A DNA stretch of 40,946 nucleotides from Desulfuromonas sp. TF (lineage in GTDB: Bacteria > Desulfobacterota > Desulfuromonadia > Desulfuromonadales > ATBO01), in the NCBI RefSeq assembly GCF_000472285.1, contig NZ_KI421422.1, positions 143,958 to 184,903 on the forward strand, written 5' to 3'. The translations under genes were made by a program, and so were the position numbers. Positions 34,477-38,135 of this stretch are shown piece after piece (the stretch's first letter is position 1; each line of letters starts with the position of its first letter). The notes under the pieces were generated by a model that made no database searches, was not told the origin of the DNA, and worked only from the letters and a program-made list of their open reading frames with translations.

Positions 34477-34506
34477 AAAAACCCGGCACTGCCATGCGAT
34501 GCCGGG
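34477..34506 (-). terminator. Rho-independent terminator of the candidate selenoprotein gene
   Basis: On the minus strand, CCCGGCA pairs with TGCCGGG across an 11-base loop and is followed by five Ts. It lies 37 bases beyond the TAG at 34543, and no other minus-strand gene ends here. Confidence 0.8.
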
Positions 34507-34542: not shown

Positions 34543-34707
34543 CTATTCCATGTTTTCGTCTGAATCTTCTTGAGCTGCGGGTTTTACCTTCCGAACCGGA
34601 AGGCTGCAGGTGTTGGAGAGTCAGGTGGATATCCCGAACCGGGGCAGGATCCATCGATTGAGTGCGTACCAGATTGCCACAATACCTAAAATACTGAGAA
34701 TTTCCAT
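34543..34707 (-). CDS. Candidate 54-residue membrane selenoprotein with in-frame TGA (or a 28-residue peptide)
   Basis: From the ATG at 34707, with AGGAGG seven bases upstream, 28 codons read MEILSILGIVAIWYALNRW and then ILPRFGIST. These form one membrane helix (residues 2-17) with basic flank residues Arg18 and Arg23. Codon 29 is TGA (34621-34623). The same frame then stays open for 25 codons, LSNTCSLPVRKVKPAAQ and EDSDENME, to TAG at 34543-34545. Codons after the TGA look normal, and Cys34 lies near residue 29. A hairpin (CCTTCC / GGAAGG, loop GGTTC) lies 18-34 bases after the TGA, where a bacterial SECIS element would be. A promoter and a terminator frame exactly this unit. Selenocysteine at 29 is an inference; simple termination at 28 residues is the alternative. 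No Sec machinery genes are in the window. Function unknown. Confidence 0.6.
34587..34603 (-). promoter_or_regulatory. Possible SECIS-like hairpin
   Basis: On the minus strand, CCTTCC-GGTTC-GGAAGG begins 18 bases after the in-frame TGA. A more distant CTGC/GCAG pairing (34606-34609 with 34575-34578) could extend it. The loop contains GGU, as bacterial SECIS apical loops often do; the bulged U of the E. coli element is not evident. Confidence 0.4.
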
Positions 34708-34732
34708 GAAGCACCTCCTATATAGTTCATTT

Positions 34733-34772: not shown

Positions 34773-35432
34773 TCAGGAAACCGTCAGTTCGTTGGTCACG
34801 TCGATTACGCCCGGCGTATACCAGCAATCCTTCTCGGCCGCGTCCTTTTCCGTCTGTGAGTCGACCCGACCGCGGAGAGTGACTTTCTTCCCATGAACAT
34901 CCAGGCGGAACTTGGCAGGACTCACCAGAACATCTTTTTCCAGAATGGTGATCAGGTTATCCTTCAGTTCCTCATCGCTGTCCTCTTCGGGAGGGTCGAC
35001 CACCAGCAGATTTCGAACCTCTGTGACTCCCGGCACCCACCAGCAGAGAACCTCGCAGAGCCGCGTGTACGCCAGGGCATGGACATGGCCCCTCAGGATG
35101 ACAACCCCTTCCGGGTCGGTTTCTATCTCGATATTACCCTCTTCAATGTTGCGTTCCTGAATAAAGGCGTGGCGAACGTGATCGGCAATCTGCAGATCAC
35201 CCATGGGACTGTCGGTCGTGACTCGAAGCTCATCTCTGACCGATTTCACTTCGGGCAGCTCTTGCGTCAATCTTACCGCCAACCGTTTGGCAGCCACAGT
35301 CGGGACCGTCCCTGTCAGGGTAACGTAGCCTCCTTCGCAGGAGATCTCCACAGTACCTGAATTCAGGTTGACTCTCTTGTCACGGGTCAGGGTTCCCTCA
35401 ATCTTCTGGATGATCTTTCGGTCCTCGCTCAT
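34773..35432 (-). CDS. Protein with three BON domains
   Basis: 219 residues with GGAGG before the ATG at 35432. Three BON modules follow one another: about residues 5-72 (GGYVTLTGTVPTVAAKRLAV), 80-148 (EGVVILRGHVHALAYTRLCE) and 155-219 (GKKVTLRGRVDSQTEKDAAE). Each has the GxVxLxG strand-turn and a following helix. No signal peptide or membrane segment is visible, unlike OsmY, so it may be cytoplasmic. BON domains are thought to bind phospholipids, which fits the nearby cardiolipin synthase, but no activity can be claimed. The candidate selenoprotein gene follows 66 bases downstream on the same strand. Confidence 0.85.
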   Translation of the reverse strand: MSEDRKIIQKIEGTLTRDKRVNLNSGTVEISCEGGYVTLTGTVPTVAAKRLAVRLTQELPEVKSVRDELRVTTDSPMGDLQIADHVRHAFIQERNIEEGNIEIETDPEGVVILRGHVHALAYTRLCEVLCWWVPGVTEVRNLLVVDPPEEDSDEELKDNLITILEKDVLVSPAKFRLDVHGKKVTLRGRVDSQTEKDAAEKDCWYTPGVIDVTNELTVS

Positions 35433-35703: not shown

Positions 35704-37038
35704 ATGCATTGGCCGGTATTCATAACCTTATTATTCGTGTCCCTTCCCGCTTCCCTCCGAGGCGAAACCGTTAATCTAGATCAGGCACTGTATGGAGCGA
35801 TATCCCGCCGTCCGCTGGCGGTGGCGGCTAAGGGGGACGCGGCGGCCGCCCGCGCGGCCGCCGATGAGGCGAGGAGCCTTTATCTGCCGCGGGTGATGCT
35901 TTCGGAGACTTTCTCCTGGACCGATGAGCCGGCCGGCAGTCTGTTCATCGACCTCAACCAGGAGGACCTGGCGCTCAGCCAGGATGCCGACAGCTACAAC
36001 TTTCCTCCTTCGCGCCGGGATTTCGAAACCCGCGTTTCCGTCGAGCAGCCTTTGTTCAACCCGGACATCTCCTACGGGACCCGCCGGGCCGAGGAGGCCG
36101 CGCGCGCCGCTGATGCCGAAGCGGAATGGTCGACCCAGCAGGCGGCTTTTGCCGCCTTCCGATCCTACCTGGATCTGCAACGGGCCCATGCGGCCCTTAA
36201 ATCGTCCCGAAGTTCAGAAAGAGAAACGGCGGAGATGCTACGGCTCTCCGATGAACAATACCGGGCGGGCACCGGTCTCAAGGCGGATCAGCTGCGAGCC
36301 AAGGTCGCACTGACCGTAGCTCGGCGACGGGTTCGGGCCGCGGAGAATGACCTGGAACTTGCCAGGCGGTCGCTGGCATTGAACATGGGACGCGCGGGAG
36401 AGGCGGTGGATATCGCCGCCCCCTTGACTCCGGAGCTGTTTGCTGAAGAAGGCGGGCAGACGATGCTGCGGCGGAACGATCTTGCGGCCCTGGGTCACCG
36501 CAGCCGAGAAGCGGAACTCGCCGCGGAGCAGAGCCGGAACCGATATCTGCCGCGCGCGGACTTAGGCGCCTCTTATTCCCTGCATGATGCCGACGTCCCG
36601 TTCGGAACCGATGCGGGATCCTGGAAAGTCGGCGCCAGGCTGTCCTGGGAACTCTTCGACGGGGGCTCCCGCAAGCATGCCGTTGCCCGGTCGGATGCCG
36701 GAGAGCAGGCAACCCGGCAGCGGTGGCTGGAAGCGGCTCAACAGGCTCGGTTCAGGGTCGAGGAGGCGCGCCTGAGGGCCGAGGAAGCCAGGCTCAACCT
36801 GGAGGCGGCCCGACAGTCGGTGGCCGCGGGAGAAGAGAGCCGCAGCCAGATCGAACAGCGCTACCAGGCCGGCCTGGTTGATCTGACCGCCCTCCTTGCG
36901 GTTCAGGCGGCCCTGGACCGCAGCCGTTTCGACCTGACTGAGGCGACGACCGACCTGATCCTTTCTCTGGGCCGGATCCATTACGAGCAGGGAACATTGA
37001 TCGAAACCTTGCTTCCCGACATGGAGGTTCAGCCGTGA
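35704..37038 (+). CDS. TolC family outer-membrane efflux protein
   Basis: 444 residues, with GGAG eight bases before the ATG. The signal peptide is WPVFITLLFVSLPASLRG. Two internally related halves follow, each with long coiled-coil helices rich in Ala, Glu and Arg (RAEEAARAADAEAEWSTQQA; QARFRVEEARLRAEEARLNL) and beta segments such as YLPRADLGASYSLHD. This matches the two outer-membrane efflux repeats that trimerise into the TolC channel-tunnel. It is the first gene of a three-gene efflux operon; its stop overlaps the next start by four bases (GTGA). Confidence 0.92.
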   Translation: MHWPVFITLLFVSLPASLRGETVNLDQALYGAISRRPLAVAAKGDAAAARAAADEARSLYLPRVMLSETFSWTDEPAGSLFIDLNQEDLALSQDADSYNFPPSRRDFETRVSVEQPLFNPDISYGTRRAEEAARAADAEAEWSTQQAAFAAFRSYLDLQRAHAALKSSRSSERETAEMLRLSDEQYRAGTGLKADQLRAKVALTVARRRVRAAENDLELARRSLALNMGRAGEAVDIAAPLTPELFAEEGGQTMLRRNDLAALGHRSREAELAAEQSRNRYLPRADLGASYSLHDADVPFGTDAGSWKVGARLSWELFDGGSRKHAVARSDAGEQATRQRWLEAAQQARFRVEEARLRAEEARLNLEAARQSVAAGEESRSQIEQRYQAGLVDLTALLAVQAALDRSRFDLTEATTDLILSLGRIHYEQGTLIETLLPDMEVQP

Positions 37039-38135
37039 AACTACTGTTCCTGATACTATCTGTGGTCCTCGTTTTCTTCGGATGCGGACAGGAGGTTCCC
37101 CCCGGTCAGGTTTCCGTGGAGAGACCGCTCGTCTCCGGCATCGAAATCGGAGAGGTCTTTCGTAGGGAGCATTCCGCCGCCCGGGCACTTATCGGGACTG
37201 TCCAGCGACCTGACCGGATCACCCTGACGGCCCGGGTCGACGGCAGGGTCGGGCTGTTCGCAGTGCGTGAAGGCGAAACAGTGCGGTCCGGCGAGCTCCT
37301 TCTGATCCTGGAAGAAAACCTCTCCGCGGCGCGTCTGCAGGAAGCCGAGGCGGGGATGCAGCAGGCGCAAAGCAGAATCGCCGCCCTGCGGGTCCGGATG
37401 GAGCTGGCCGAGAAGACTTTCGAGCGCTATAGCCGTCTCCGGGAGGGGGAAGCGGTGACCCCCCACGAGATGGATCAGGTGCGATCCGAACTGGAGGGGG
37501 CCAGGCAGGAGCTGGCTGCCGCCGAAGCCGCCGGCCGCCAGGCCGCCGCCGGCAGAAGCGCGGCCCGGATCGGCGAAGGATACACCCGCATCACGGCCCC
37601 TTATGCGGCGATGGTGGTGCGCAAGGAGGTGAGGGAAGGGGCGACGGTGATGCCGGGCTCACCCCTGGTGACCCTCGACTCCCGGGAAAGCTGGCAGGTG
37701 ATCACCGAAGTGCCCGAATCTTCTCTCGACCGGATCCGGATCGGGGAAACTCTGCCGGTTGAGGTCCCGGCCGCGAATCTGGAGATTTCCGCAGAAGTGG
37801 TGGAGATTCTGCCCTCCGTGGATGTCCGAAACCGCTCCTTTCCTGTCAAGCTGAAGGTTCCGGAGCATCCGGCTCTCAGGTCGGGACAATACGCCCGGGT
37901 GATCACTTCCGGAGCGCCGGAGGTTCTGATTACGATTCCGGCCGCGGCAGTGGTGACCCGCGGCCAGCTCACCGGGGTGTATGTGGTTCAGAACGGCATC
38001 CTTCACTATCGCCAGGTCAAGACCGGCGAGAAGGTGGATGAACGCATCGAAATACTCTCTGGGCTCTCGGGGGAAGAGGCCATTGTGGTCCGCGGGGTCG
38101 AAAATGCCCGCCACGGGGCCAGGGTGGAGGGGTAG
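37035..38135 (+). CDS. RND efflux periplasmic adaptor (membrane fusion protein), lipoprotein
   Basis: 366 residues from a GTG that overlaps the tolC stop. The signal MKLLFLILSVVLVFFGCG has a lipobox-like FFGC with the lipidated Cys at 17. Domains: barrel-lipoyl half-motif (VDGRVGLFAVREGETVRSGE), a helical hairpin of about 90 residues, the second lipoyl half (ITAPYAAMVVRKEVREGATV), a beta-barrel, and a membrane-proximal domain (ITIPAAAVVTRGQLTGVYVV). It bridges the inner-membrane pump and the TolC-type channel. The RND pump gene starts one base after its stop codon. Confidence 0.94.
   Translation: MKLLFLILSVVLVFFGCGQEVPPGQVSVERPLVSGIEIGEVFRREHSAARALIGTVQRPDRITLTARVDGRVGLFAVREGETVRSGELLLILEENLSAARLQEAEAGMQQAQSRIAALRVRMELAEKTFERYSRLREGEAVTPHEMDQVRSELEGARQELAAAEAAGRQAAAGRSAARIGEGYTRITAPYAAMVVRKEVREGATVMPGSPLVTLDSRESWQVITEVPESSLDRIRIGETLPVEVPAANLEISAEVVEILPSVDVRNRSFPVKLKVPEHPALRSGQYARVITSGAPEVLITIPAAAVVTRGQLTGVYVVQNGILHYRQVKTGEKVDERIEILSGLSGEEAIVVRGVENARHGARVEG

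Follow-up and report, generated by a model that had tools for sequence, protein, structure and literature searches.

A probable new family of membrane-anchored bacterial selenoproteins of about 50 residues, identified in Desulfuromonas sp. TF

Bacteria insert selenocysteine (Sec, U) by means of SelB, tRNA-Sec, and a SECIS element that lies within the coding region, and searches for prokaryotic selenoproteins largely depend on Sec/Cys pairs. In the bacterial SECIS (bSECIS) model, as set out in the part of the source available to us, the loop distance is 16-37 nt for most elements, one G occupies the first two loop positions, and G or U often comes next (PMC13188914). The same 2026 census names 119 prokaryotic selenoprotein families; its Table 1 holds no entry that fits the gene described below by description or motif, although the table carries no sequences, so that comparison with its unnamed families was limited to the NCBIfam and Pfam libraries. 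Small or unassigned members of that census (TsoA, LULAxC, NF045695; hypothetical DG, DW, DF, GOS_B, and GOS_C) resemble the present family in their short Sec motifs and in having been found by computation, most of them with no function assigned. They differ from the present family, whose motif, GxxTU-x4-C, follows a membrane helix and which has no convincing match to an NCBIfam model. In Desulfuromonas soudanensis WTL, the columns of the published table appear to give 13 known selenoproteins and no new one; according to the same source, the tool employed may filter out selenoproteins that have no Cys homologs, which all known ones now seem to have (PMC12013277). No comparable protein appears among the selenoproteins listed in 2006 for three Geobacter species, in the sections available (PMC1794560), and a study that sought conserved in-frame stops predicted, in its accessible part, one new selenoprotein, a cytochrome (PMC1914089). 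We found no description of the family in the open-licence PMC literature searched.

Here we describe a gene in a 40,946-nucleotide window (the whole stretch of DNA analyzed) of the Desulfuromonas sp. TF contig NZ_KI421422.1. A standard-code reading of the locus yields only a 28-residue ORF. Judged from comparative sequence data, the gene very probably represents a new bacterial selenoprotein family, a microprotein of about 50 residues that spans the membrane once, and we regard Sec insertion at codon 29 as close to certain.

The locus and its reading frame

On the minus strand, from 34707 to 34543, 28 codons with a hydrophobic stretch are followed by an in-frame TGA, 25 sense codons, and TAG (Table 1). 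This is the layout that a preliminary description had proposed, including the AGGAGG element and the ATG, and it is confirmed in the sequence. When the TGA is read as U, the 54-residue product consists of a hydrophobic helix, the segment WILPRFGIST-U-LSNTC, SLPVRK, and a charged tail.

Table 1 Positions of the features of the candidate selenoprotein locus in the window
Feature	Position	Strand	Evidence
Candidate selenoprotein gene of 54 codons, from ATG to TAG, with Sec (TGA) at codon 29	34543..34707	-	Sequence; conservation of frame and TGA
Ribosome-binding site AGGAGG	34714..34719	-	6 bases before ATG; sequence, similar sites precede many relatives
ATG start	34705-34707	-	Sequence
Codons 2-23, predicted single membrane helix	34639..34704	-	AlphaFold2 and hydrophobicity; K/R after the helix
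In-frame TGA, codon 29, probably read as selenocysteine	34621..34623	-	Conserved TGA; TGT/TGC in two Acidobacteriota homologs
Cys34 codon (TGC), proposed partner of Sec29 (U-x4-C)	34606..34608	-	Conserved Cys, TGC/TGT
Apical hairpin of the putative SECIS element	34587..34603	-	Inverted repeat, codon coupling, synonymous shuffles, ordinary TGA stops as control
LPVRK codons, in which the apical hairpin of the putative SECIS lies	34588-34602	-	Sequence
TAG stop	34543-34545	-	Sequence
Terminator-like stem with T run, downstream of TAG	34477..34506	-	Inverted repeat 34482-34488/34500-34506 and T run

The gene is flanked on one side by a 219-residue ORF at 34773-35432 (minus strand) and on the other by the terminator-like stem, which has an 11-nt loop and a minus-strand T run after it. 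The stem and T run of the rho-independent terminator suggested earlier are thus present in the sequence, but a terminator scan that allowed loops of 3-8 nt reported none. The earlier sigma-70 promoter candidate, TTGTGT-17-TATATT, did not hold up; we rejected it as no better than chance, its first hexamer agreeing with the consensus at three of six bases and the promoter scan leaving it unreported. A loose sigma-54-type promoter pattern occurs in 10 of the 107 upstream regions of distinct family members. Beyond the upstream gene, at 35704-38135 (plus strand), lie ORFs that, judged by eye, resemble a TolC-type outer membrane protein and a membrane-fusion protein; RND-type permeases are also found near the gene in some other loci.

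Conservation of the TGA codon and co-occurrence with selenocysteine machinery

We searched 58 relative genomes (the source genome included) with the 54-residue product carrying C for U, and obtained a strong match (E 4e-10 or better) in 50. All 50 extracted genes have TGA at the Sec codon; with frame and TGA kept in 50 of the 58 genomes, the gene as a whole is, on this comparison, more than a chance reading frame. Final stops among these genes are TAA (25), TGA (14), and TAG (11), and since 14 of the 50 themselves end in TGA, the codon is not reassigned as such. Positions W19, P22, G25, U29, and C34 are invariant in a 46-member alignment. A scan of a genome collection, based on a peptide pattern lying upstream of the TGA, found 201 relatives; the best 80 were kept, and TGA is present in every one of these loci. 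The ranking should not favor TGA over Cys, because tblastn treats TGA as a stop. Record titles among the best 80 name Desulfuromonadales, Acidobacteria, Verrucomicrobia, and Planctomycetota. Isolates from which the scan recovered the gene include Desulfuromusa kysingii DSM 7343, Malonomonas rubra DSM 5091, and Geothermobacter hydrogeniphilus HR-1. The 50 relatives and 80 collection loci (130 loci, comprising 107 distinct members after removal of duplicates) never have TAA or TAG at the Sec codon. Homologs do not all end at residue 28, the outcome that the preliminary description had named as speaking against it; all 50 relatives and all 80 collection loci are conserved past the TGA.

Searches at the phylum level, with the alignment as query and matches accepted at E up to 0.001, gave matches in 171 of 395 sampled genomes of the source phylum, 57 of 247 Acidobacteriota genomes, 59 of 150 genomes of one Acidobacteriota order, and 3 of 240 Verrucomicrobiota genomes, among which the match in G1084 is weak with a TGA and that in G918 is short. 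With three matching genomes, Verrucomicrobiota was rejected as a reservoir of the family. TGA is present in every own-phylum match listed (down to E 1.6e-8). When the 22 weakest own-phylum matches were rechecked, TGA lay within the match in 16 and directly after it in five of the other six (L165, L166, L172, L173, and L175; the sixth is L180). The G918 match and a second match in G752 (E 8e-4) may be due to chance.

Several loci depart from the common pattern. Two in-frame TGA codons occur in L165, L166, and L172 (genomes G260, G323, and G343, of one genus), in PSUGAPVD... and, later, PTUDG-SCSIG, as if the putative Sec motif had been duplicated. Two TGA-bearing family matches are present in a single genome in G449 (L316 and L319) and likewise in G834 and G836. 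The member in L087, from a record labeled 'Chloroflexi', is nearly identical to that of L089, a Desulfuromonadaceae record. Given this likeness and the lack of a tRNA-Sec match in the L087 genome, the contig is probably misbinned.

Among the matches examined in all searches, only two homologs carry Cys at the Sec position, both in Acidobacteriota: L195 (genome G641), with TGT in place of TGA, LPAMGIGTCMSGAC, and L303 (genome G714), with TGC, LPRFGIPTCMSNSC. tRNA-Sec was not detected in G641 or G714. Matches to tRNA-Sec of at least 60 bits were found in 4 of 4, 16 of 19, and 48 of 55 TGA-bearing Acidobacteriota genomes, together 68 of 78 TGA carriers versus neither of the two Cys carriers (p about 0.02); Acidobacteriota that lack the gene also often have tRNA-Sec (18 of 24 and 11 of 20 in two samples). 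On the strength of these codons and their conservation, the TGA is shown to act as a sense codon here; it is almost invariant, with Cys codons in its place in two homologs. The family appears widespread and almost purely Sec-containing, and recurs in several bacterial phyla. With 171 of 395 own-phylum genomes matching and only two Cys members, it is a hard case for searches that rely on Sec/Cys pairs; if the reading is true, the selenoproteomes of many anaerobes are incomplete.

The source genome, whose possible lack of Sec machinery had been raised as a further ground for doubt, contains both tRNA-Sec (80.9 bits, C17:250738-250829) and selB (381.5 bits, C17:240904-242766). Taking as a marker either selB over its cut-off or tRNA-Sec of at least 66 bits, we found the gene in 49 of the 53 relatives with a marker versus one of the five without (p = 8e-4). 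G040 has the gene and neither selB nor tRNA-Sec was found in it, in a genome that is 87% complete. At the Rfam cut-off of 47 bits, tRNA-Sec matches occur in 51 of the 58 genomes; the G021 match (47.8 bits) was left uncounted, since scores in this range also turn up alongside genuine matches. In the 395 own-phylum genomes, the gene and selB occur together in 163, the gene only in 8, selB only in 190, and neither in 34 (p = 8e-4), and all eight genomes with the gene and no selB match have tRNA-Sec. The same holds for all 10 genomes of Acidobacteria, Verrucomicrobia, and Planctomycetota from which the collection scan drew members. Four relatives (G002, G016, G044, and G052) have selB and tRNA-Sec and gave no family match, the family having been lost or having diverged within the order. 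Because of these four, the gene, as far as genome content tells, is dispensable although frequent among Sec users.

The part after the TGA is conserved as protein. Cys34 (U+5) is present in 105 of the 107 distinct members, encoded by TGC in 60 and TGT in 45, and Ser at U+2 is present in 95, through several codons. At both residues, third codon positions vary more than first and second positions (entropy per codon position, 107 members). Retention of Cys34 through both of its codons argues for selection on the protein past the TGA. In a later set, pattern search recovered a member from 282 of 319 loci, 214 of them distinct. The pattern requires a TGA, so this set is uninformative on TGA conservation; it leaves out duplicates without TGA and loci that the pattern missed or that had diverged too far to fit it. 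Cys is found at U+5 in 193 of these 214 members and somewhere from U+4 to U+8 in 204. The pairing of Sec29 with Cys34 envisaged in the preliminary description is therefore conserved at the level of residues, and the two could form a bond.

A SECIS-type hairpin in the LPVRK/E codons

A perfect 7-bp hairpin (arms 34597-34603 and 34587-34593) begins at the 18th base past the TGA and, counted as a 6-bp stem, has the 5-nt loop GGUUC, which confirms as an inverted repeat the hairpin first noticed at that distance. Of 200 dinucleotide shuffles of the stretch 34560-34630, 198 fold less well than the actual sequence (z -2.85). The hairpin coincides with the motif LPVRK, whose spelling, CTT CCG GTT CGG AAG or similar, is self-folding.

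We examined codon coupling in the 54 of 107 members in which K, E, or D comes directly after LPxR. Where Leu is CTT, the codon after LPxR is a Lys codon in 30 of 30 cases; where it is CTC, that codon is one for Glu or Asp in 23 of 24 cases (Fisher p = 2.2e-14, an optimistic value given that the members are related). The third base of the Leu codon pairs with the first base of the Lys/Glu codon, and the change in the protein is thus matched by a silent substitution that preserves the pairing. This coupling shows that the hairpin is selected as RNA. A protein motif that overlaps a SECIS stem, and in which the choice of Leu codon follows the switch between Lys and Glu, offers a clear example of selection at two levels.

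Shuffling and control comparisons gave a similar picture. Against synonymous shuffles, the region U+4 to U+14 is unexpectedly stable: the mean z is -1.57, with z below 0 in 97% of 106 members, versus means of 0.02 and 0.31 in two control regions before the TGA. Hairpins of at least 5 bp are present in 185 of the 214 distinct members; 86.4% of the 213 testable members have one, versus 34.6% in synonymous shuffles, and the single-gene shuffle test has a median p of 0.08. The remaining 29 members have no hairpin of at least 5 bp in the place searched. At 681 ordinary TGA stops of long ORFs from the same loci, hairpins of at least 5 bp occur in 327 and of at least 6 bp in 156, versus 185 and 165 of the 214 members, and GU/GG loops occur in 36, versus 170 members. 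Hairpins at a similar position can also be formed by many members with other motifs there (e.g., VESR, EIGDR, or LPRDG).

These elements resemble the bacterial SECIS in lying within the coding region and in having loops that start with G followed by G or U. The loop is positioned 14-26 nt past the UGA, mostly 23-24 nt (214-member set), largely inside the range of 16-37 nt given in the available part of the bSECIS description (PMC13188914). They differ in that the conserved protein motif LPVRK/E itself forms the hairpin, and in the 29 of 214 members that have no stem of at least 5 bp there. By the codon coupling and the shuffle and stop-codon controls, the mRNA just past the TGA is shown to be under selection to form a bacterial SECIS-type hairpin. 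By analogy with known bacterial Sec decoding, SelB with Sec-tRNA would bind this hairpin and insert Sec at codon 29. The recoding of the TGA proposed in the preliminary description gains support from TGA conservation, codon coupling, the Sec/Cys pairs, and the presence of tRNA-Sec and selB.

Architecture, gene neighborhood, and possible function

The AlphaFold2 model (44 members) contains one helix at residues 2-23, with a mean pLDDT of 91 for residues 1-10 and 88 for residues 11-20. The overall mean pLDDT is 68.2; the tail past the helix is of low confidence and, as modeled, probably disordered. Charges are distributed asymmetrically, with means of 0.28 K/R and 0.87 D/E before the helix versus 1.95 K/R and 0.07 D/E after it, and K/R follows the hydrophobic helix in 213 of the 214 distinct members. 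Under the positive-inside rule, the N-terminus would lie outside and the tail in the cytoplasm; Sec29 and Cys34 would then sit within a flexible segment, on the inner membrane's cytoplasmic face. No relative was found among solved structures at E up to 0.1.

Comparison with family libraries gave little. The 54-residue protein of the source genome has no match in Pfam or NCBIfam. The best matches of the 46 aligned members (E 0.019 in NCBIfam, with 7 of 46 members matching; E 0.011 in Pfam, PF04602, 29 of 46 members) were taken as chance hydrophobic matches. For 44 broadly sampled members, the best NCBIfam match is the PP0621 family (NF041023; E = 0.01, two of 44 members); the likeness extends to this weak match of two members, but the match is insignificant and probably reflects a shared hydrophobic helix.

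We clustered the neighbors of 76 loci and then of 186 distinct loci, naming clusters from a reading of their sequences, and assigned Pfam names to 139 close same-strand neighbors (first 25 of 176 families listed). No dominant partner gene emerged from any of these three sets. The commonest cluster among the 186 distinct loci is of two-component type (41 loci, 31 of them from L031-L130), and neighbors change between clades. Thioredoxin family PF00085 accounts for 4 of the 139 close neighbors. In L187 and L197 (Acidobacteriota), a gene for a membrane protein with a GLNLFQSAF-NWCP motif, the selenoprotein gene, and a gene for a thioredoxin-motif protein lie in that order on one strand; we take the first of these to be DUF2892-like. 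A thioredoxin motif is also found downstream of the gene in L179 and L215, and L170 has a thioredoxin-like N-terminus past the gene region.

We give about even weight to a membrane-tethered redox role for the protein. In such a mechanism, the selenol of Sec29 would attack an oxidant or a disulfide at the membrane, Cys34 would resolve Sec29 by forming a selenenylsulfide with it, and the selenol would be regenerated by thioredoxin or a comparable reductase. In a few genomes a thioredoxin-motif gene lies immediately downstream, a hint to thioredoxin as electron donor. With PF00085 at only 4 of the 139 close neighbors, the redox partner is a guess, and thioredoxin in this role is a tentative suggestion that we consider possible but doubtful. 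If the reading is true, a function that seemingly needs selenium at the membrane becomes testable.

Two other roles would retain the Sec residue. The very small size of the protein and the differing neighbors between clades would suit a subunit, regulatory or structural, within some larger complex in the membrane, with Sec sensing redox state or selenium supply; no partner gene recurs consistently in the neighborhoods examined, and we consider a subunit role rather unlikely. Alternatively, Sec29 and Cys34 might bind a metal or metalloid ion (e.g., Hg, Cu, or Zn) at the membrane with no redox chemistry. The U-x4-C arrangement beside the membrane, the charged tail, and the MerR (3), ArsR (4), and AcrB-type (2) genes among the 139 close neighbors are consistent with this, but such neighbors are rare, the Cys is incompletely conserved even when U+4 to U+8 is allowed (204 of 214), and no known metal motif was recognized; we consider metal binding unlikely.

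Two further explanations dispense with Sec, and both are highly improbable. A 28-residue membrane peptide ending at the TGA is plausible as a product in itself, and untranslated regions can carry conserved regulatory hairpins, but the frame past the TGA is conserved as protein (both Cys34 codons; variable third positions at Ser U+2 and Cys U+5), and the codon, never TAA or TAG in 130 loci, is yet TGT or TGC in two genomes with no detected tRNA-Sec. DNA alone cannot show selenium, and near-cognate suppression could in principle read the TGA as Trp, Cys, or another residue, with the hairpin only promoting readthrough; against this stand the exclusive use of TGA and its replacement by Cys codons, hairpins whose distance and loops agree with the published SECIS model, the detection of tRNA-Sec in most of the carrier genomes tested, and the 14 of 50 genes that themselves end in TGA.

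For the selenoprotein reading, we propose SELENOS as the nearest working analog, with respect to a selenol/thiol redox centre at the cytoplasmic face. In the part of the source available, SELENOS has a cytoplasmic tail with Sec, a selenylsulfide, and a probable Trx-linked reductase function (PMC10650576). Eukaryotic SELENOK and SELENOS share with the present family a single transmembrane segment near the N-terminus and an unstructured tail, both predicted here, and differ in having Sec second or third from the C-terminus, as the accessible text describes (PMC10650576), whereas here it is residue 29 of 54, near the membrane. The 54 residues also contain no glycine-rich segment, and the family is bacterial, the likeness being drawn from architecture and not from sequence. 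Because neither the Sec position nor the glycine-rich segment fits, the protein is not a member of SELENOK/SELENOS. On balance, we lean slightly toward a broader picture in which the family ranks among the most widespread selenoproteins of its phylum and of some Acidobacteriota, overlooked owing to its length of ~50 residues and near-absence of Cys homologs; in which Sec is near-obligatory for its work and some members have two; and in which its architecture, a membrane-tethered, disordered selenol redox centre, makes it a bacterial counterpart of SELENOS and SELENOK.
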